Positions 16,642-29,298 of a stretch of DNA of 33,509 nt are shown here, in pieces. Under the pieces are notes generated by a model that worked only from the letters and a program-made list of their open reading frames with translations, ran no database searches and was not told the origin of the DNA. Source of the DNA: Flavobacteriales bacterium (GTDB lineage Bacteria > Bacteroidota > Bacteroidia > Flavobacteriales_F > PHOS-HE28). Positions within the stretch are counted from its first letter, which is position 1. Each line of letters opens with the position of its first letter. Both the position numbers and the translations under genes were made by a program. The stretch covers positions 1 to 33,509 of the forward strand of contig JAIOIH010000019.1 in the NCBI GenBank assembly GCA_019912395.1. The letters are read 5' to 3'.

Positions 16642-18006
16642 ATGCCGAAGGCGATCCATAGCACCCGCATCATCACCCCGACAGGTGTAGTAGAAGCCAC
16701 GCTCATATTAGCCGATGGCAAGATCAAGGAAGTCATCTCCGGCAAAGTCCAGCGTGAAGGCATCCCCTTCGAAAGCGTCGGCGACAAAGTGATCATGCCC
16801 GGTGTGATCGACGCGCACGTCCACATCAACGAGCCGGGGCGCACGGAGTGGGAAGGCTTCGAGACCGCCACGAAAGCCGCTGCCGCCGGAGGCATCACCA
16901 CGCTGATCGAAATGCCGCTGAACGCGAGCCCGGTGACCACCACTGCTGCTGCGCTGTGGGTGAAGCTGGAAGCCGCGATGGGAAAGCTGCACGTGAACGT
17001 CGGGTTCTACGGCGGTGTGATCCCCGGCAACATCGACGACCTCGATGAACTGCTGGGCGCTGGCGTCTTCGGCATCAAGGCCTTCCTCACGCACTCCGGC
17101 ATCGACGAGTTCCCGAACGTCACCGAAGCGGATCTGCGGAAGGCGTTGCCGATCCTAAAACGGCACGATGCAAGGCTGTTGGTCCACTGCGAGCTGGAGG
17201 CAGCGGCGGGTGTGGTAAGGACGATGCATGCATCGTCCCATACCAACACCAGCCCCGACGAGCGCAGCTATGCCAACTATCTAGCAAGCCGTCCGAGTGG
17301 CTGGGAAACCGACGCCATCGCCCTCATGATCCGCCTCAGCGAAGCGTTCGATGTCCACGCCCACATCGTACACGTATCCGCAGCGGAAGCATTGCCGTTG
17401 ATCCGTGATGCCCAAAAGCGCGGACTACGCATCACCGCCGAGACCTGCCCGCATTACCTCGTCTTCTGCGCGGAGGACATCCCCGACGGTGCCACGGAAT
17501 ACAAATGCGCACCACCGATCCGCGAACGCGCCAACAACGAGCTGCTCTGGGAAGCGCTGAAGGACGGCACGCTCGACTTCGTGGCTACCGACCACTCACC
17601 TGCGCCGCCGGATATCAAGGAGCAACAGAGCGGTGACTTCATGAAAGCGTGGGGCGGGATCGCGGGGCTGCAGTTCCTGTTGCCTGCGTTCTGGACCGGT
17701 GCGAAGGAGCGCGGGTTCTCGTATGAAGATGTCGCGCGGCTGTTGTGTGAGCATCCTGCGCAGTTCCTTGGTTTGAATCAAAAAGGCCGCATTGCTCCCG
17801 GCTGTGATGCCGACCTGGTGATCTGGGATCCGGAGGCGAGCTTTGTGGTGAAGGAGGAGGACATCCAGCACCGGCACAAGCTCACGCCGTATGCGGGGCG
17901 GAGGTTGTTTGGGGTGGTGGAGCGGACGGAATTGGCGGGGCGAACAGTCTTCGATAAGGGTAGAATCAGCGCCGAGCTTAAGGGCATGGTGATCAAGAAT
18001 AGTTGA
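16642..18006 (+). CDS. allB: Allantoinase
   Basis: 454 residues. It hydrolyses allantoin to allantoate in the cytoplasm. It is an amidohydrolase-fold enzyme with the two-metal set complete: H59 and H61 in DAHVHINEPG, the carbamylated K146 in GIKAFLTHSG, H182 in LLVHCE, H244 in HIVHVS and D317 in VATDHSP. The NEPGRTEWEGF and CAPPIR segments are typical of allantoinase rather than dihydropyrimidinase. Residues 191-201 (VVRTMHASSHT) are encoded by a REP palindrome, located on the loop after H182 and before YANYLASRPSGWE, leaving all metal ligands intact. Start ATG 16642; no Shine-Dalgarno. The stop codon is one base from the alc ATG. Confidence 0.95.
   Translation: MPKAIHSTRIITPTGVVEATLILADGKIKEVISGKVQREGIPFESVGDKVIMPGVIDAHVHINEPGRTEWEGFETATKAAAAGGITTLIEMPLNASPVTTTAAALWVKLEAAMGKLHVNVGFYGGVIPGNIDDLDELLGAGVFGIKAFLTHSGIDEFPNVTEADLRKALPILKRHDARLLVHCELEAAAGVVRTMHASSHTNTSPDERSYANYLASRPSGWETDAIALMIRLSEAFDVHAHIVHVSAAEALPLIRDAQKRGLRITAETCPHYLVFCAEDIPDGATEYKCAPPIRERANNELLWEALKDGTLDFVATDHSPAPPDIKEQQSGDFMKAWGGIAGLQFLLPAFWTGAKERGFSYEDVARLLCEHPAQFLGLNQKGRIAPGCDADLVIWDPEASFVVKEEDIQHRHKLTPYAGRRLFGVVERTELAGRTVFDKGRISAELKGMVIKNS
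17213..17245. repeat. REP palindrome inserted in frame in allB
   Basis: Inner stem GGACGATGC/GCATCGTCC (17219-17227 with 17230-17238) and outer stem TGGTA/TACCA (17213-17217 with 17241-17245). It has the same architecture and core as the palindromes flanking the RAYT gene at 23670-23699 and 24307-24348, so it is likely a member of the same family. Confidence 0.88.
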
Positions 18007-18007
18007 G

Positions 18008-19045
18008 ATGCAGAAAGAAAACAGCGCTCCCGCTTTCACCCACCTCATCAACCTCGCCGCCGAGCGCTTCGGAGCCAAGGTGCTCTGGTGTACCGATGAT
18101 TTCTTCGCCGAGAAGGAGAACCTGATCAAACCAGAGAAGCCCATCTTCATCGCGGAAAAATTCACCGAGCACGGCAAGTGGATGGACGGCTGGGAAAGCC
18201 GCCGCAAGCGCACCGAGGGGCACGACATCGTCGTCATCCAGCTTGGCGCGGCGGGCATCATCAAGGGATTCGATGTGGACACCTCGCACTTCCTGGGCAA
18301 CCAACCGGAGTACTGCACCATCGAAGCGTGCTACGCACCTAATGGCGATTGGGAGAATGCCTCATGGGTCGAGGTGCTTGGCAAGACCATGCTGAAGCCG
18401 GGCAGTCAGCATTTTGTGGATGCCAACCCGCAACCCGCAACCCGTCAACTCGCAACCCATGTTAGGCTCCACATCCATCCCGACGGAGGAGTAGCAAGGC
18501 TCCGAGTCTACGGCGAAGTACAACGGGATTGGAAAACGGTGAAGCCGGATGAGCTGGTGGACCTCGCATCCGCCCAGAACGGTGCCCTCGCCATCCAGTG
18601 CAACGACATGTTCTTCAGCCACATGAACAACCTGCTGATGCCCGGTCGCGGCGTGAACATGGGCGATGGCTGGGAGACCAAGCGCAACCGCACGCCCAAC
18701 AACTGCGACTGGGTGATCGTACGCCTCGCGCACAAGGGCATCCTGAAGAAAGCACTGATCGACACTGCCCACTTCAAGGGCAACTACCCGGACAGTTTCA
18801 CCCTGGAAGGTTGTTCCATCGAAACTACTGCAGCGTCGACCCACCGGGTCGACCCGCAAGCTGAGGCTGCGGCACTAGCCAACGCCAAGTGGCGCACCCT
18901 GATCAAGCGCACCAAGCTGCAGGCCCACCACGAGCACCTGTATGAAAAGGAGCTGGTTTGCAAGGAAGCCGTGTCGCACGTACGTTTGAATATCTTTCCC
19001 GACGGTGGCGTGAGCCGGATCCGGCTGTGGGGAACCATCGTTTGA
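18008..19045 (+). CDS. alc: Allantoicase
   Basis: 345 residues. It cleaves allantoate to ureidoglycolate and urea. The family is a tandem of two related beta-sandwich domains, visible here as two copies of one pattern: KWMDGWESRRKR...FDVDTSHFLGNQPE in the first half and MGDGWETKRNR...ALIDTAHFKGNYPD in the second, each ending with 'VRLxIxPDGGVxRxRxxG' (HVRLHIHPDGGVARLRVYG, HVRLNIFPDGGVSRIRLWG). Length is close to the usual 330-350 residues. Two low-complexity interruptions are present: residues about 139-151 (NPQPATRQLATH, from a CAACCCG-rich repeat at 18423-18459) and 276-282 (a small palindrome). Start ATG 18008 follows the allB stop after one base, so coupled translation is likely. Confidence 0.94.
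   Translation: MQKENSAPAFTHLINLAAERFGAKVLWCTDDFFAEKENLIKPEKPIFIAEKFTEHGKWMDGWESRRKRTEGHDIVVIQLGAAGIIKGFDVDTSHFLGNQPEYCTIEACYAPNGDWENASWVEVLGKTMLKPGSQHFVDANPQPATRQLATHVRLHIHPDGGVARLRVYGEVQRDWKTVKPDELVDLASAQNGALAIQCNDMFFSHMNNLLMPGRGVNMGDGWETKRNRTPNNCDWVIVRLAHKGILKKALIDTAHFKGNYPDSFTLEGCSIETTAASTHRVDPQAEAAALANAKWRTLIKRTKLQAHHEHLYEKELVCKEAVSHVRLNIFPDGGVSRIRLWGTIV
18835..18853. repeat. Small palindrome inside alc
   Basis: A perfect 8-bp stem, GTCGACCC (18835-18842) with GGGTCGAC (18846-18853), has a 3-nt loop. It encodes part of TAASTHRVDPQAEAAA, a linker between the second-domain strand and the WRTLIKRTKL segment. It lacks the GATGCATGCATC core, so it is not of the RAYT-linked family. Confidence 0.6.
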
Positions 19046-22243: not shown

Positions 22244-23674
22244 ATGAACACCAGCATCAAGACCAAGGACAGATCCCGCATCCTCGCCACCCTCGGCAAG
22301 GCGAACAATGCGTTCCAAGTCATCTATCCCGGCGACCGGCCCGACCGCCAGCCCGTGCATACCGTGTATGGCGGCGCCGACCTCTTCACTGCGGAGACCG
22401 CGCAGAAGATGGCCAACGCCGCGCTGAAAACGTTGACCGAGAACGCCGCCGATTTCACCGAATTCGCTCGTGCCTTGGAACTGCCCGGTTACGATAAACT
22501 GCCGAAGAAAGCAGCCGATATTGCCAAGCTGGTGAAGCGTTTCGACAAGCTCACTCCTGCCAAGCGCAAGGAGGAGACTGGCTGGCTCGCCTACGCCACC
22601 TACAACAAGGTGATCCACAAGCTGCGCACCGAAGCGCTGGAGGATTTTCGCATCGATTTCGAGGACGGCTTCGGGAACCGGAGCTGGGAAGAGGAGGACG
22701 CCACCGCCGAGAAGGCCGCGCTGGAAGTGGCCAAGGGCATGAAGGCGAAGTCGCTGCCGCCCTTCATCGGCATCCGCATCAAGCCCTTCACCGAGGACCT
22801 GAAGGAACGCGGCGCGCGCACGCTAGACATCTTCCTCACCACGCTCTCGAGCAAGACCAACGGCAAGCTGCCCGACAATTTCGTGGTGATGCTGCCCAAG
22901 GTTTCCATCCCGGAACAGGTCACCGCGCTGGTGCAGCTTTTCGAGGCGATCGAGTCCAGCACCAAGATCGCCAAGGGCGCGCTGAAAATGGAGATGATGG
23001 TGGAGACCACGCAATCCGTGATCGCCGCCGACGGTACCAATCCTTTGCGCAAATACGTGCTCGCCAGCAAAGGCCGCATGATCGCCACGGCCTTCGGCAC
23101 CTACGATTACACGGCCGCCAACAACATCACCGCGAAGTACCAGGACATGGGCCACGCTGTCTGCGATTTCGCGCACATGATGATGAAGGTCGCGCTCGGC
23201 GCCACCGGCATCTGGCTAAGCGATGGTGCCACCAACGTGATGCCGATCGGCCCACATCGCGGCAAGAAGCTCACGCCAAAACAACGCGCCGAGAACAAGG
23301 CCGTGGTACACCGCAACTGGAAGAAGGCGTACGACCACACGCGCTACTCGCTTTGGAAAGGCCTCTACCAAGGCTGGGACCTCAACCCCGCGCAATTCCC
23401 CATGCGCTACGCCGCCGTCTACAGCTTCTTCCTGGAGAGCTACGACGATGCCGCCGCGCGCCTCAAGGCCTTCGTGGAACGCGCCGCCCGCGCCACGCTC
23501 ACCAGCGATGTCTTCGACGATGCCGCCACCGGTCAGGGCCTGCTGAACTATTTCCTGCGCGGGCTGAACTGCGGTGCGATCAGCGAGGAGGAGGCACTGG
23601 CCACGGGGCTGTCGCTGGCGGAGATCCGGACGCGGTCGTTCTTGAAGATCTTGGAGGGACGGAGGGGACGGTAA
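22244..23674 (+). CDS. DUF6986-type aldolase/citrate-lyase superfamily protein
   Basis: 476 residues. The fold family (HpcH/HpaI aldolase, citrate lyase beta, malyl-CoA lyase) is indicated by DFRIDFEDGFGNRSWEEED (acidic metal-binding loop), VVMLPKVSIPEQV and LKMEMMVETTQSVI (metal-ligand Glu on a barrel strand) and IATAFGTYDYTAANNI. The C-terminal WDLNPAQFPMRYAAVYSFFL is typical of the DUF6986 group, close to malate-synthase-like enzymes. The reaction is not established. Members of this superfamily join or split glyoxylate-type acceptors, and its position between the ureide genes and xdhAB suggests it handles the C2 unit of ureidoglycolate; this is inference. Its last codons run into a REP palindrome that provides the TAA stop, so the end of the protein may have been altered by insertion. 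Confidence 0.8.
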   Translation: MNTSIKTKDRSRILATLGKANNAFQVIYPGDRPDRQPVHTVYGGADLFTAETAQKMANAALKTLTENAADFTEFARALELPGYDKLPKKAADIAKLVKRFDKLTPAKRKEETGWLAYATYNKVIHKLRTEALEDFRIDFEDGFGNRSWEEEDATAEKAALEVAKGMKAKSLPPFIGIRIKPFTEDLKERGARTLDIFLTTLSSKTNGKLPDNFVVMLPKVSIPEQVTALVQLFEAIESSTKIAKGALKMEMMVETTQSVIAADGTNPLRKYVLASKGRMIATAFGTYDYTAANNITAKYQDMGHAVCDFAHMMMKVALGATGIWLSDGATNVMPIGPHRGKKLTPKQRAENKAVVHRNWKKAYDHTRYSLWKGLYQGWDLNPAQFPMRYAAVYSFFLESYDDAAARLKAFVERAARATLTSDVFDDAATGQGLLNYFLRGLNCGAISEEEALATGLSLAEIRTRSFLKILEGRRGR

Positions 23675-23699
23675 GGACGATGCACGCATCGTCCTTACC
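23670..23699. repeat. REP palindrome, left flank of the RAYT gene
   Basis: A perfect 14-bp stem (23670-23683 with 23686-23699) with a 2-nt centre, containing GGACGATGC/GCATCGTCC. It includes the TAA stop of the upstream gene and ends 15 nt before the RAYT start codon. A GTAG tetranucleotide, a hallmark of many REP elements, is at 23704-23707. Confidence 0.9.
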
Positions 23700-23714
23700 C
23701 GACGTAGAGCACAC

Positions 23715-24278
23715 ATGTCCTCATCCTACGGCCACCGACGATCCATCCGCCTGCGCGGGTACGACTACACGCGAGTAGGGGCCTACTTTATCACGATACT
23801 TACACATCAGCGAGAGCACAGGCTGTGCAGCATCTCCGCAGGTCCTCAGGGCGAAGCGTACGTCTCGCTGACAGACATAGGCATGATCGCACAGCGTTGC
23901 TGGGATGAAATACCAGCACACTTCCCGCATGTGGAGATCGACACGTTCCAGATCATGCCGGATCATCTGCACGGCATCATCATCATCGCATCGCCACCTC
24001 CACCTCCGGATCCTGATGAGGAGCGCCGCTACGGCACGCATCCGGATGGCCGATTGATGCCCACAGGTCGCGTCCCTGGCTCTGTCGGTGCGGTAGTTTC
24101 CTCGTACAAGAGCGCAGTCACCCGCCTGGCCAACATCGCAGATGGTACCCCGGGCTCCAGTCGCTGGCACCGAGGCTACTACGAGGTCATCATCAGGCAT
24201 CCGGCACAGCACCACCGTATATCGGACTACATCGAGCGCAACCCCGCTGAGTGGCTGCGCCAGCAGCGTGGCACGTAG
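23715..24278 (+). CDS. REP-associated tyrosine transposase (RAYT, IS200/Y1 family)
   Basis: 187 residues. It is an HUH-type Y1 transposase domain: the HxH motif is in MPDHLHGIIII (H84, H86) and the nucleophile Tyr is in SRWHRGYYEVIIRH (Y155/Y156), followed by ISDYIERNPAEWLR, the conserved RAYT end. The N-terminus RRSIRLRGYDYTRVGAYFIT is the usual Bacteroidota RAYT opening. RAYTs are single-copy domesticated relatives of IS200 transposases that bind and nick REP hairpins in single-stranded DNA. Here the gene is bracketed by REP palindromes 15 nt upstream and 28 nt downstream, and more copies occur in the surrounding purine genes. A proline run (ASPPPPPDPDEE, about 92-103) sits between HUH and Tyr motifs. 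It appears intact. Confidence 0.92.
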   Translation: MSSSYGHRRSIRLRGYDYTRVGAYFITILTHQREHRLCSISAGPQGEAYVSLTDIGMIAQRCWDEIPAHFPHVEIDTFQIMPDHLHGIIIIASPPPPPDPDEERRYGTHPDGRLMPTGRVPGSVGAVVSSYKSAVTRLANIADGTPGSSRWHRGYYEVIIRHPAQHHRISDYIERNPAEWLRQQRGT

Positions 24279-24306
24279 CCAGACCCAGAGCACTGCGGAG
24301 CCGCGA

Positions 24307-24348
24307 TGGCCGGTAAGGGCGATGCATGCATCGCCCCACTACCGGCCA
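24307..24348. repeat. REP palindrome, right flank of the RAYT gene
   Basis: Inner 9-bp stem GGGCGATGC/GCATCGCCC (24317-24325 with 24328-24336) and outer 9-bp stem TGGCCGGTA/TACCGGCCA (24307-24315 with 24340-24348). This is the GCCC subtype of the core found at 24517, and at 28641 in xdhA. Confidence 0.9.
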
Positions 24349-24516
24349 GCACGGAGCAGCCCAGCGCGTGTCGGCGAGTGTAAGTAGGCCATGCGTGTAG
24401 CCGCTCAGCGCGTGTCGTCCCCCGCGTGCGTGTCACCCTCCTAGGCGCGCGTCGCTCAGCGTACGTGTGTCGCCCAGAGGGGGCGAAGTCCAGCTCTCTC
24501 TGCCTCCGTAGTCCGC

Positions 24517-24545
24517 CGCGTGGGGCGATGCATCGCCCATACGCG
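24517..24545. repeat. Third REP palindrome downstream of the RAYT gene
   Basis: Inner stem GGGCGATG/CATCGCCC (24523-24530 with 24531-24538) with no spare centre, and outer stem CGCGT/ACGCG (24517-24521 with 24541-24545). Between this and the right flank, 24349-24516 is GC-rich with three near-copies of CAGCGCGTGTCG (24362, 24406, and diverged at 24457) and no gene; 24546-24620 also holds nothing that I can name. Confidence 0.85.
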
Positions 24546-25477: not shown

Positions 25478-27841
25478 CTATTCCCTATACAACCCCATCA
25501 AGACCTTCTCCGGTGTGAACGGCGCATCATACTTCGGCACGTACTTTGGGTTGAACGCCAGCACCGCGTTCTCGATCGCGAAGTACACCCCGATGCCGTA
25601 CATTAACGGTGGCTCTCCGGTTGCTTTGCCACGACGGATCGCCATCGGGTGACCGTCCGTCGGTAACGACTCGATGCGGAGCTCCTTCGGAACACTGTGG
25701 ATGTCCGGGACCTTGTACGTGCTCAGCGCGTTGCTCAGCAAGCGGCCCTTGTCGTTGTAGACGATCTCCTCCATCGTCATCCAGCCCAGGCCCTGCACCA
25801 CCCCGCCTTCGATCTGGCCGATGTCCACCGCGTCGTTGATGCGCTTGCCGAAGTCGTGGACGAGCTTCACCGCGTCCACCACATAGGTGCCACGGATGCA
25901 GTCCACCGTGACCAGCACGGCCGCTGTGCCATAGACGTGATATGAGAACGGATGGCCTTTCTCTTTCGCCTTATCGAAGTGGATCTCCGGCGTGGCGTAG
26001 TGGCCGCTTTCGCTCAGGTTCACGCGGTCCCAGCGGCAGGCGAAGACCAGCTTGTCCCAGTCCAATTCGGTGGCTTGGCCGTCGTTGAGCACTTGCTCGT
26101 TCTCAATGGTGATCGCATCGGTGTGTCCCGGGCTTGACCCGGGATTCAGCATGCGTGATGCCTTCTCCTTGATGCGCTCCAGAATGGCGTTGCAGGCGAT
26201 CTCCAGTGCCTTGCCGTTGAGGTCGGCGGTGGCGCTGGCGGCGCTGGGGCTGGTGTTCGCCACACGCGTGGTGTTGGTGCTTTCGATCTTGATGCGCTCC
26301 ACGCCGATCCCGAACGTGGCCGCGGCCACCTGCACCATCTTGGTGTTGAGTCCTTGGCCCATTTCCACGCCGCCGGTGCTCACGCCCACGCTGCCGTCCT
26401 GGTACACATGCACCAAGGCGCGCGCATTGTTCATCGGCGTGTTGGTGAAGGAGATCCCGAAGGTGATCGGCATGATCGCCATGCCTTTTTTGTGCGTCGT
26501 GCTCTTTGTGTTGAACGCATCGATCTCCGCCTGCTGCTTATCGAAGTCGAAGGTCTTGTCGGCCAGCTCCCAGGTTTCATCCGCCAGCACGCGGTCGGCG
26601 ATCTGGCCGTAGGGGAACTCGCTTCCTTCCTTCAGCAGGTTGCGCTTTTGGATCTCCCGTGCGCTCACGCCGAGTGCCTGCGCGGCTTTCGCGATGGCGG
26701 CCTCGATCACGAACATGCCCTGTGGCCCGCCGAAACCGCGGAAGGCCGTGTTGGGCGGGAGGTGCGTGCGGCAGCAATAGGCCGTCACGTCCACGGTCGG
26801 GATGAAGTAGCTATTGGTGGCGTGGAAGAGCGTGCGCTCCATCACGGCGGGGGAGAGGTCCGCAGAGGCGCCGGCGTTCTGGTGGAAAGTGGCTTCGTAG
26901 GCCACGATCTTCAGGTCCTTGTCGAAACCGATCTTGAAGTCGCTGCTGTACGGATGCCGCTTGCCGGTCATGCGCATGTCGTCCATTCGATGCATGCTGA
27001 ATTTCACGGGCCTCTTCAACACGAACGCGGCCAAGCCCACCAAGGCCGCCCATGCGGAAGCCTGGTCCTCCTTTCCGCCAAAGCCGCCGCCCAAGCGCGT
27101 GACGTCCACTTCCACCTTGTGCATGGGAATGCCCAGCACGCGCGCCACTGCAATTTGCACAGCATTGGGTCCTTGCGTGCTGCTGCTTACGCGAAGGCAG
27201 CCGTGCTCGGTGATGCGGGCATACGCGCCCTGTGTCTCGATGTAAAGATGCTCCTGCCCGTTGGTGTCGGCGCGACCTTCGAAGACGTGCGCGCATGCGT
27301 CCCAAGCCTTGTTGGTGTCGCCCATTCGGAAGCGGCGCGGCGGGATGATGAGTTCGCCTTTCTCGCGTGCTTCGCGGGGATCGGTGATCACGGGAAGCTC
27401 TTCCAACTTTACGTTGATCAGCTTCCGTGCCTGTCGTGCCGCATCTTCCGAGATCGCGACGATCAGCGCCATCGGCATGCCCCAGAAGTGGATCTCGTTC
27501 TCCACCAAGAGCGGTTCATCCTCAATGACACTGCCGATCTGGTTCTCGCCGGGAATGTCCTTGTACGTAAGGATCCGCACCACGCCTGGAACTGCCGACG
27601 CCTTTGAAATATCGAGCTTTTTGACGTGCGCGTGGGCCGAAGGCGCATCAAAAGGCAATGCGTACAGCGTGCCTTGTTCCACGGGAATATCATCCAAATA
27701 GATCGATCGCCCAGTGACGTGGAACGCGCTGTCCACGTTCTTCATGCCGGCCGTGGAACTGCCGTTGACACTGCCTTTCACCGCTGCGGCCTCCATGTTG
27801 GGGATCGCGCTGGACGTACCTTTTCTGTTGCTCGCTTTCAT
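25478..27841 (-). CDS. xdhB: Xanthine dehydrogenase, molybdenum-binding subunit
   Basis: 787 residues, the usual length of a separate XdhB. With XdhA it oxidises hypoxanthine and xanthine to urate at a Mo-pterin centre. Cofactor and active-site segments: RLGGGFGGKEDQAS, TAFRGFGGPQGMF (substrate-binding Arg), GGVEMGQGLNTKM and the catalytic Glu in GEPPLMYG (E743). A short palindrome encodes RMLNPGSSPGHTDA around residue 566-572, an apparent insertion between a helix and the following strand. Its ATG overlaps the xdhA stop (ATGA, 27838-27841), so the two subunits are translationally coupled, with xdhA first. The gap to the antitoxin (25360-25477) contains a GATCAGCGCGGATC/ATCCGCG-type imperfect palindromic stretch and no gene. 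Confidence 0.96.
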   Translation of the reverse strand: MKASNRKGTSSAIPNMEAAAVKGSVNGSSTAGMKNVDSAFHVTGRSIYLDDIPVEQGTLYALPFDAPSAHAHVKKLDISKASAVPGVVRILTYKDIPGENQIGSVIEDEPLLVENEIHFWGMPMALIVAISEDAARQARKLINVKLEELPVITDPREAREKGELIIPPRRFRMGDTNKAWDACAHVFEGRADTNGQEHLYIETQGAYARITEHGCLRVSSSTQGPNAVQIAVARVLGIPMHKVEVDVTRLGGGFGGKEDQASAWAALVGLAAFVLKRPVKFSMHRMDDMRMTGKRHPYSSDFKIGFDKDLKIVAYEATFHQNAGASADLSPAVMERTLFHATNSYFIPTVDVTAYCCRTHLPPNTAFRGFGGPQGMFVIEAAIAKAAQALGVSAREIQKRNLLKEGSEFPYGQIADRVLADETWELADKTFDFDKQQAEIDAFNTKSTTHKKGMAIMPITFGISFTNTPMNNARALVHVYQDGSVGVSTGGVEMGQGLNTKMVQVAAATFGIGVERIKIESTNTTRVANTSPSAASATADLNGKALEIACNAILERIKEKASRMLNPGSSPGHTDAITIENEQVLNDGQATELDWDKLVFACRWDRVNLSESGHYATPEIHFDKAKEKGHPFSYHVYGTAAVLVTVDCIRGTYVVDAVKLVHDFGKRINDAVDIGQIEGGVVQGLGWMTMEEIVYNDKGRLLSNALSTYKVPDIHSVPKELRIESLPTDGHPMAIRRGKATGEPPLMYGIGVYFAIENAVLAFNPKYVPKYDAPFTPEKVLMGLYRE
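26126..26144. repeat. Small palindrome inside xdhB
   Basis: TCCCGGG (26126-26132) and CCCGGGA (26138-26144) pair perfectly around CTTGA. It encodes part of LNPGSSPGHT, which interrupts an otherwise normal XdhB region. CCCGGGTCAAGCCCGGG-like hairpins are widespread as short repeats in many bacteria; the family here is not determined. Confidence 0.7.
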
Positions 27842-29298
27842 ACCAGTTCCTTCAATTTGAAACGCTCCGGGAACAGCTCCATGAAATGGGCGAAGAGCAG
27901 TTGCCGCAGCAGCAAGCGCTTATAATCAGCCGAGCCGCGCGCATCGCTGATCGGCGCGATCTCCTCGTTCATCACGGCCACGGCGTTCCGTACGGTTTCC
28001 GGTGTGGCTTCTTTTCCCACGAGGAAGACCGCGGTGTTCGCGAGGAACTTCGGCACGGGCGCCACGCCACCAGCACTTATGAACGCTTCGCGAATGGTGC
28101 TGCCTCCCGCAGAATTGCGGGACATCTCCAAACGGATCGCAGTGTTCACGCTGGCGATGTCCAGATAGGTGCGCTTGCTCACTTTCTCGAAGTTGAAGCG
28201 CGTGTTCTTCGTCGGTAGTTTGAAGCGCACGTTGGTGAGTATCTCCTCCGGCGATCTATCGAGATCCTTGTAGCCTTTGTAAAGGTCCTTCAACTTCACC
28301 TGGCGCTCTTCGCCGGATGATGCGCGAAGCGTGATCGTACTGTCCAGCGCGATGAAGAAGGCTGTGAGGTCGCCGATGGGAGAGGCGTTCACGAAGTTGC
28401 CGGCCAGCGTGCCCATGTTGCGGATCGGCGTGGAGCTCACGAGCAGCAGGTGCTTTTCCAGGTTCGGGAAATGCGAATGCAATTCCTTTGATGCCAGCAG
28501 GTCGTTCGCAACGGTGGCCCCACCGATAATACATGTATCGCCTTCGATGCGGATGCCTTTCAACGTAGTGTCGTTGAACACGGTGCGTATCGGTGCATGG
28601 TGCATGGTGTCGTGTTTTTGCACGTAGAGGTCTGTGCCGCCCGCCAATGGCGGCATGGGCGATGCATGCATCGCCCCGCTGGCGGCTACCTTACCCAGGG
28701 GCTGGATGCTGCGCAACCGTTCTTCAATATCCGAGAAGTACGCCGGAACGAACCCGTTCTTCACGCTCCATGCCACAGGGTACTGTATGTCCTTTTTCTC
28801 CAGCGCCCGCGCAACATCCGCGGCAGCGCGCTCAATGCTTTTGTAGCCCGTACACCGGCAGATGTTTCCATCGATCGTGCGGATCGCAAGGTTTTCTGTC
28901 ACTGCTTCATGCGAGAGGCAACAACCGCTCAACGACACCACGAAGCCCGGCGTACAGATGCCGCATTGCGTGGCGCCTTGGTTCACCAGGGCTTGTTGCA
29001 CCATGCTGAGATCCTCTACGCCAGCGCCATGTTGCAAGGGGTCGGTGAGCCCCTCAACTGTTACGATGTGCTTTCCATGGACGTTTGCCAAGGCCAACAG
29101 GCACGAGGTCATGGAGCGGTAGTCCATGCGGTCGTTCTTCAGCTCGCCGACAAGCACGGTACAAGCTCCGCAATCCCCTTCGCGGCAGCCGATCTTGGTG
29201 CCGGGTAAATGTTCGTGGTATCGGATCACGTCCAACAACGTGGTGCCGGGTTCGGCGTCGCTGCGGATCGTGCGGTCGTTCAGGATGAACTCGGTCAT
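27838..29298 (-). CDS. xdhA: Xanthine dehydrogenase, 2Fe-2S and FAD-binding subunit
   Basis: 486 residues, the two-domain XdhA form. N-terminal plant-type 2Fe-2S ligands: C38, C43, C46 and C66 (GCREGDCGACTVL ... SC); second cluster ligands C112, C115, C147, C149 (QCGICTPG, ICRCTGY). The FAD domain has PPLAGGTDLY (about 216-225), IRNMGTLAGNFVNASPIGD and FEKVSKRTYLDIASVN. Electrons pass from the Mo centre in XdhB through the clusters to FAD and then NAD+. A REP palindrome encodes AASGAMHASPM at about 205-215, immediately before the FAD-binding GGTDL loop, leaving that motif intact. ATG has its complement at 29296-29298. A TAAATTG on the minus strand 30 nt before the start could be part of a promoter, but it is weak. 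Confidence 0.96.
   Translation of the reverse strand: MTEFILNDRTIRSDAEPGTTLLDVIRYHEHLPGTKIGCREGDCGACTVLVGELKNDRMDYRSMTSCLLALANVHGKHIVTVEGLTDPLQHGAGVEDLSMVQQALVNQGATQCGICTPGFVVSLSGCCLSHEAVTENLAIRTIDGNICRCTGYKSIERAAADVARALEKKDIQYPVAWSVKNGFVPAYFSDIEERLRSIQPLGKVAASGAMHASPMPPLAGGTDLYVQKHDTMHHAPIRTVFNDTTLKGIRIEGDTCIIGGATVANDLLASKELHSHFPNLEKHLLLVSSTPIRNMGTLAGNFVNASPIGDLTAFFIALDSTITLRASSGEERQVKLKDLYKGYKDLDRSPEEILTNVRFKLPTKNTRFNFEKVSKRTYLDIASVNTAIRLEMSRNSAGGSTIREAFISAGGVAPVPKFLANTAVFLVGKEATPETVRNAVAVMNEEIAPISDARGSADYKRLLLRQLLFAHFMELFPERFKLKELV
28641..28685. repeat. REP palindrome inserted in frame in xdhA
   Basis: Core GGGCGATGC/GCATCGCCC at 28657-28665 and 28668-28676, with outer arms CCGCCA (28641-28646) and TGGCGG (28680-28685). 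The left side carries 8 extra bases relative to a symmetrical palindrome. It has the same core subtype as the REP at 24307-24348 beside the RAYT gene. Confidence 0.85.

Follow-up and report, generated by a model that had tools for sequence, protein, structure and literature searches.

A transposase gene among GATGC palindromes in a Flavobacteriales bacterium, with copies in frame inside enzyme genes

Does the small "domesticated" transposase gene in this stretch of DNA from a Flavobacteriales bacterium act on the palindromes that flank it, and how do copies of such palindromes come to lie inside enzyme genes? The window, by which we mean the whole stretch that was analyzed, is the entire contig C73 (33,509 bases) of a genome, G000, of 4.13 Mb in 87 contigs. 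We consider it probable, at roughly 0.82, that the locus is a repetitive extragenic palindrome (REP) system of the REPtron-like kind, in which a REP-associated tyrosine transposase (RAYT) handles hairpins with a GATGC core. A REP/RAYT unit with in-frame palindromes is a well-documented new example of an already known phenomenon; less usual, and under-appreciated, is that one protein loop takes different palindromic families in different species. The genus itself is little studied. Orthologue comparisons cover 45 genomes of the genus unless another number is given. AllB orthologues were found in 13 of these and XdhA orthologues in 14, and the nearest named relative judged by the locus is the Flavobacteriales metagenome-assembled genome (MAG) ACE_BAC32 (JAHBUL01; L026), referred to below as G023.

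The transposase gene and its palindromes

An earlier note, made from the letters of the sequence, had described an intact HUH/Y1 transposase gene at 23715-24278, and the open reading frame (ORF) was confirmed. In its product, P0001, the HUH motif is H84-L85-H86 and the presumed catalytic tyrosine is Y172. Residues H84, H86, Y172, I173, and N176 do not vary among the 22 RAYTs that we aligned, and the P of the NP motif is replaced by V in three Bacteroidales sequences of that alignment. The AlphaFold model of P0001 (pLDDT 85.3, pTM 0.80) matched the structure of E. coli TnpAREP bound to a REP (4er8) in Foldseek (E 3.3e-6, root mean square deviation 3.7, TMq 0.55), as well as IS200/IS605 TnpA (E 2.5e-6; structures 2xm3 and 2vjv). 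A profile built from the 22 RAYTs also matched 4er8 (E 3.4e-6); a single-sequence search of solved structures with P0001 returned no relative. The features discussed below are as follows, with the z scores of the five GATGC stretches obtained by folding them as DNA.

23715-24278, plus strand: RAYT (TnpAREP-type HUH-Y1 transposase) gene, protein P0001 of 187 amino acids; intact ORF, invariant residues, predicted fold
23670-23699: 5' REP, core GGACGATGCACGCATCGTCC at 23675-23694 (1 mismatch in the core scan), double foot GTAA..TTAC; fold z -5.9
24308-24347: 3' REP, core GGGCGATGCATGCATCGCCC at 24317-24336 (core scan), outer arms GGCCGGTA/TACCGGCC; fold z -4.8
24523-24538: shortened core GGGCGATGCATCGCCC, read from the sequence; weak fold z -2.8
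17210-17249: REP inside allB (allantoinase, 16642-18006, plus strand), core 17219-17238, in frame, encoding RTMHASSH; fold z -4.6
28657-28676: REP core inside xdhA (xanthine dehydrogenase small subunit, 27838-29298, minus strand), in frame, encoding GAMHASPM; fold z -2.5
18833-18855 (core 18835-18853): second-family REP, GTCGACCC-ACC-GGGTCGAC, inside a putative allantoicase-like gene (alc; 18008-19045, plus strand), in frame, encoding ASTHRVDP

The palindromes thus listed bear out most of what had been noticed at first. GATGC cores do bracket the RAYT gene, and two further copies do lie in frame inside enzyme genes, as the core scan and the reading frames support, with positions 17213 and 28641 marking the outer arms rather than the cores. 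A third copy had been placed downstream at 24517; a palindrome exists there, with the core shortened. The in-frame copy of another family at 18835-18853 had been overlooked. The core GGNCGATGCATGCATCGNCC has four matches with at most 3 mismatches in the window (17219, 23675, 24317, and 28657) compared to 0.05 expected, and 0 of 100 shuffles reached four. The core is not confined to the window: genome-wide, we counted 13 copies when 2 mismatches were allowed and 23 when 3 were, and a control pattern read backwards gave none. Several of the 3-mismatch matches look like chance, and the copy statistics that follow use the 13. Both proposed subtypes, GGaCGATGC and GGgCGATGC, are real. A GTAA or GTAG foot stands on at least one side of 8 of the 13 copies, compared to 4% of random positions, with GTAA being the more frequent form. 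The foot is doubled at the RAYT gene: the 5' copy has GTAA on both strands, and the 3' copy has GTAA on one side and GTAG on the other.

The syntenic RAYT orthologue beside xdhA occurs in three genomes only (G000, G023, and G007), all of which have a GATGC palindrome on the 5' side of the gene; P0001-like genes at large occur in 27 of the 45 genomes (E 1e-5). The G000 and G007 proteins are 67% identical, and their dN/dS of 0.21, with synonymous sites almost saturated (dS 1.2), indicates that purifying selection has kept the gene between these two. In G023, the gene (L026/L139) carries a 2-base duplication that gives a frameshifted reading; an assembly error is possible since G023 is a MAG. About 277 bases that include the 3' REP copy and the RAYT stop codon are also missing from this genome. 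So is a GTGTCG-rich stretch at 24350-24520 that separates the 3' REP from the shortened core.

Compared with known systems, the locus resembles subclass 2.4 of TnpAREP class 2 from Bacteroidetes (Quentin et al. 2018, PMC6006769) in its HUH motif and single Tyr within a YIxxNP-like motif, its GTAR-footed flanking REPs, its double-foot palindromes, and the in-frame palindromes of related RAYT genes. That paper gives subclass 2.4 in-frame REPs inside tnpA genes, double-foot REPs, and the motifs NH[IFV]H, WQ, and YIxNNP; P0001, in contrast, has no internal REP and reads DHLH, WH, and YIERNP. Relatives of P0001 vary in these motifs, and some paralogues in the genus agree with them fully (e.g., L142, with NHIH, WQ, and YIRNNP). 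Likeness to E. coli TnpAREP extends to the fold, the HUH/Tyr arrangement, and the GTAG-type foot, which guides cleavage by the E. coli enzyme (PMC8266576), and W151, E157, and R161 of P0001 are by profile alignment the W, E, and R of its GTAG-reading segment. P0001 differs in having H at the equivalent of Q95 and V at the equivalent of H101. The palindromes differ from E. coli REPs in core, in perfect symmetry, and in their 13 copies; E. coli REPs number in the hundreds. With IS200/IS605 TnpA, P0001 has in common the Y1 HUH fold; unlike those elements, the RAYT gene stands in single copy at a conserved place. Its other matches in the same genome are just 41 to 49% identical, and the seven PF01797 matches all lie elsewhere. 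The ORF list, to which this check was confined with no profile search for tnpB or insertion sequence (IS) ends, holds no ORF of tnpB size between the RAYT gene and 25478. Judged from copy number and gene context, with IS ends unsearched, the gene does not appear to be an IS itself. A phage origin was also set aside, as PHROGs gave no match for P0001 or three other RAYTs.

Which transposase may have spread the copies

We propose that the RAYT most likely recognizes single-stranded hairpins formed by GATGC palindromes with a GTAA or GTAG foot (e.g., GTAA-GGRCGATGCATGCATCGYCC and GTAA-GGACGATGCATGCATCGTCC), and that its HUH/Tyr site would cut and rejoin them, whereby copies would spread over evolutionary time. 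They would settle mostly between genes, several of them immediately after a stop codon, a position in which the GTAG/GTAA foot can itself provide the stop. Copies that land inside genes would persist only if the frame is kept and the position is a loop or linker.

In its favor we count the repetition of the core and its feet across the genome, the palindrome next to the gene in all three syntenic orthologues, the match of the predicted fold to TnpAREP, the purifying selection on the gene, the small share of copies inside genes, the in-frame copies in allB, xdhA, and alc, the clean empty alc sites in four genomes, and the palindromes within related RAYT ORFs, among them GATGC cores in two distant Bacteroidales RAYTs (L060 and L075).

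Several observations weigh against this proposal. The NCBIfam model NF047646 (REP_Tyr_transpos) scored P0001 under its threshold (E 2.7e-9, 37.1 bits, cut-off 80), and Pfam gave no family at E 0.001; we take these results as a sign of divergence and make no claim that P0001 is the curated equivalog. The xdhA copy and four further copies have no GTAR foot, and no excision or insertion product is visible in the sequence data. Lastly, copies are numerous without the syntenic gene. At up to 2 mismatches, the genomes with the orthologue hold 13 (G000), 9 (G023), and 2 (G007) copies, and five genomes without it hold 11 (G004; 4 of them exact cores), 9 (G016; 5 exact), 7 (G008; 1 exact), 6 (G003; 0 exact), and 5 (G020; 2 exact). 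Given these copies in genomes that have no orthologue, the role of P0001 as the mover is one that we infer, and the cognate pairing rests on adjacency and conservation. Genomes without any RAYT gene had been singled out as informative should they carry the core at similar density. The five that lack both a P0001-like gene and any PF01797 match hold 1 (G011), 3 (G012), and 0 (G019, G029, and G035) copies, which is not a similar density yet hardly decides the matter, with four of the five less than 90% complete, the G012 copies being 2-mismatch variants, and PF01797 missing P0001 itself.

The strongest alternative is that another RAYT, lost or unrelated, or several RAYTs with this core in common, spread the GATGC copies, and that the RAYT of the window merely adjoins an old copy. 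The numerous copies in the five orthologue-less genomes favor this, as do the sites that G000 has in common with G023, whose RAYT reads as broken (see below), and the wide distribution of the core. The exact core occurs in at least 115 stretches of a species-level genome collection, in Bacteroidales, Anaerolineales and other Chloroflexota, Acidimicrobiia, and other groups, often as GTAG-core-CTAC; some of the matches that have no GTAG-type foot may be chance. BLAST found a RAYT in 5 of the 115 listed stretches (up to 8 kb), two of them from this genus. Against the alternative, a GATGC palindrome adjoins the RAYT in three species despite the divergence between the G000 and G007 proteins, and selection has conserved the gene. 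We regard it as doubtful on balance, and the proposal that P0001 itself handles the GATGC hairpins as the better account. As a separate observation, the exact GATGC core occurs four times in an Ardenticatenales stretch (L101, 5819-5962), spaced by 46, 39, and 39 bases.

Intergenic sites and their turnover

REPs had been expected to be normally intergenic, which holds as a tendency: by reading ORF context, 11 of the 13 GATGC copies are intergenic and 2 (allB and xdhA) clearly intragenic, a share that has a p of 5e-8 against an assumed coding density of 85%. One of the 11 (C9:167) lies near a contig end, and several sit in an open frame just before a probable start codon; if an upstream start codon is real, several of these become N-terminal coding. 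As a rule, the expectation was too strict, since intragenic REPs are described in two papers (PMC3733652 and PMC6006769). The foot of the palindrome forms the TAG or TAA stop codon downstream of mreB, ahead of the ORF at C31:64574, and in the copy 5' of the RAYT gene, where the upstream ORF (22244-23674) takes its TAA stop from the GTAA foot.

The locus had been thought active or recently active. Comparison with the nearest relative did not uphold this: 7 of the 13 copies, at six sites, lie where G023, with its frameshifted RAYT, also has a copy (the C79 site holds two copies in G000 and one in G023), and copies are numerous without the orthologue. These six sites are, as far as shared position tells, old. 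Three of the 13 copies (allB, mreB, and RAYT 3') are absent from G023, 1 matches over just 84 bases, and 2 are ambiguous. Comparing orthologous loci, as had been suggested, thus yielded sites both with and without the insertion, in allB and behind mreB, next to six that are common to the two genomes. Upstream of allB, read in 10 genomes, GATGC occurs in G023 and G020, and a different, AT-rich repeat occurs in G000, G007, G008, G014, and G029; the latter was recognized by eye, and a strict pattern found it in 1 context only. Behind mreB, read in 30 of 44 matching genomes, GATGC occurs in G000, G018, G042, and G007, other palindromes occur in several genomes, and none occurs in G023. An mreB tree, with good support on 6 of its 27 inner branches, requires 4 changes of the GATGC label, and well supported branches force at least 2 of these. 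Behind nusG (29 of 30 loci read), differing cores stand at the same place in different species. Turnover has occurred, since close relatives are unlike at the sites in allB, upstream of allB, and behind mreB. The mreB site of G007 (L260) carries a perfect 50-base palindrome, with 25-base arms, around the GATGC core.

Alternatively, the palindromes behind stop codons could be transcription terminators or mRNA 3'-end hairpins that are kept by selection and not mobile. The position of several intergenic copies right behind stop codons fits this, and some outer arms lengthen the stem: a paired outer run of at least 6 occurs in 8 of 118 listed cross-phylum copies, compared to a mean of 1.6 and a maximum of 6 in 200 permutations. 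However, the identical 20-nucleotide core recurs in unrelated places and inside genes, inspection of the sequence revealed no T-tract behind the palindrome copies of the window, and orthologous sites are empty or carry other cores in relatives. We find a purely terminating function unlikely, and an extra terminator role beside mobility possible. Over the same 118 copies, outer-arm pairing was 2.10 at positions 0-4 (maximum of 1,000 permutations, 1.93) and 1.38 at positions 4-8 (permutation maximum, 1.28), and did not exceed the permutations at positions 8-16 (2.14, compared to a mean of 2.03). We rejected the outer arms as a separate signal of in-place palindrome extension; the arms pair within a copy and differ between copies, and the effect is real but modest.

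A link between palindromes and the type of stop codon, which would point to stop-codon rewriting, is suggestive only. Behind mreB and nusG, a palindrome abuts 13 of 36 TAG/TAA stops compared to 2 of 23 TGA stops (Fisher p 0.03, kinship ignored; 59 of the 60 loci entered the count, as one at nusG was not found), in a count whose detector missed an abutting palindrome in G043 and a slightly farther one in G042.

Palindromes inside enzyme genes

The loop of allB between HCE and LASRP is palindromic or contains an inverted repeat in 10 of 13 genomes, and the repeats are of four kinds, three of which were seen to recur elsewhere. The GATGC core is present in G000 only (1 of 13 orthologues). G042 has a GTAG-type palindrome with another core, which occurs only once among the loci compared, and G003, G014, and G022 have GTCATTCCGGnCTTGAnCCGGAAT-like palindromes. 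By eye, G023, G020, G029, and G038, as well as the more degenerate G004, contain inverted repeats of the CAGTTGTC..GACAACTG type, and no clear repeat is seen in G040, G008, and G007. The CAGTTGTC 15-mer is found in 20 of 44 genomes, with 32 matches in G023 (tandem ones overlap) and none for the control. Heptamer-type CAGTTGTC/GACAACTG repeats were noted in the allB loops of L169, L171, L175, L176, and L179; they are dispersed, with 36 matches to the 15-mer in G033.

In xdhA, the GATGC copy is present in G000 and G023 and absent from 12 of 14 orthologues. Another loop of xdhA, around residue 325 of P0003, carries an in-frame insert of the CATTCCGG type (AIPGQARND) in 3 of the 13 genomes with sequence reaching the site (G040, G022, and G026; L185, L187, and L193), and the other 10 are without it. 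Among the loci compared, the CATTCCGG type occurs at five (two allB loops and three xdhA), with none for the reversed control. In alc, G000, G023, G040, and G008 carry the insert, and the site is cleanly empty, with a protein 14 residues shorter, in G004, G003, G014, and G029; the sequence ends before the site in G007, G020, and G042, and the stretches from G022 and G038 are without alc.

The alc insert belongs to a second palindrome family. A scan of the window found 8 palindromes, and since five shuffled controls also gave 3 to 8, only repeated ones count. One of these, GTCGACCCACCGGGTCGAC at 18835, has the core GTCGACCC-N3-GGGTCGAC, unlike GATGC; with 1 mismatch allowed, the pattern has 8 genomic copies and its control none. 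The core also lies inside another RAYT gene of the same genome (C31 164705-165214). Judged by probable start codons, 5 of the 8 copies are intragenic and 3 intergenic, compared to 2 of 13 intragenic in the GATGC family. Besides alc, in-frame copies were met in linkers of an E2 acyltransferase, between its lipoyl and E3-binding domains (L261, C20), and of MazG, between its two matched stretches (L266, C9), and in a NuoF-like ORF, ahead of the FMN domain (L268, C85). Over both families, the window holds 3 of 7 intragenic REPs, a clustering that is post hoc because the window was picked for such copies.

Selection of the insertions for an added peptide that alters the enzymes is very unlikely: the repeats in the allB loop of most genomes and the common reading frame of the two GATGC copies (RTMHAS and GAMHAS) favor it, but the frame agreement is weak because, by our own arithmetic, a GATGC element with a GTAG foot is free of stops in only two of its three frames, the kinds at the one allB loop encode unrelated peptides (MHAS, VIPxLxRN-like, and SVVGSQL..TTDN), and alc is kept without the insert in four genomes at 72 to 77% identity. 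On our reading that the copies arrive as mobile REPs, the inserted peptides would be neutral.

Such insertions have precedents. In Di Nocera et al. 2013 (PMC3733652), REPs in ORFs are proposed to lie in linkers or loops, the GTAG foot supplies TAG stops, and two Xanthomonas species have different REPs at nearly the same position in recB. The copies described here resemble those intragenic GTAG and CGTC REPs, including Rickettsia palindromic elements, in lying within ORFs at loop or linker sites and in using the foot as a stop. They differ from those cases in that four palindromic kinds occupy a single loop among 13 genomes, and a further site is filled in some genomes of the genus and empty in others. 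A literature search of titles and the starts of abstracts, with few subscription journals, found no report of the GATGC core, nor of an enzyme loop that several repeat families have in common, and a look-up of GATGCATGCATC found nothing relevant.

We tentatively suggest, as a possibility that falls short of even odds, that certain protein loops serve as recurrent landing pads, with several independent palindrome families, moved by various RAYTs or none, entering, leaving, and replacing each other at the same codons (the allB loop, two xdhA loops, and alc, and likewise behind mreB and nusG). If so, RAYT/REP traffic would continually supply metabolic enzymes with in-frame variation in their loops and linkers. 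Filled and empty orthologous REP sites of several families in enzyme genes of one genus make it testable whether RAYTs mobilize REPs and how a protein is affected by a REP inserted in frame, and provide a natural experiment in how protein loops absorb mobile palindromes.

RAYT genes themselves carry palindromes. Of 30 RAYT loci, 18 contain a palindrome in the matched span, 16 being REP-like by eye (no shuffled control). Cores inside the ORFs of RAYT paralogues form a possible specificity table, which would be ready-made if these RAYTs hold their own cognate palindromes; many RAYTs paired with the palindromes they carry are raw material for a specificity code. In the genus, paralogues L142-L166 have various cores inside the ORF, among them GGCGGCGAATTCGCC, GTCGACGGATCCGTCGAC, and GGCCGATCATGATCGGCC.

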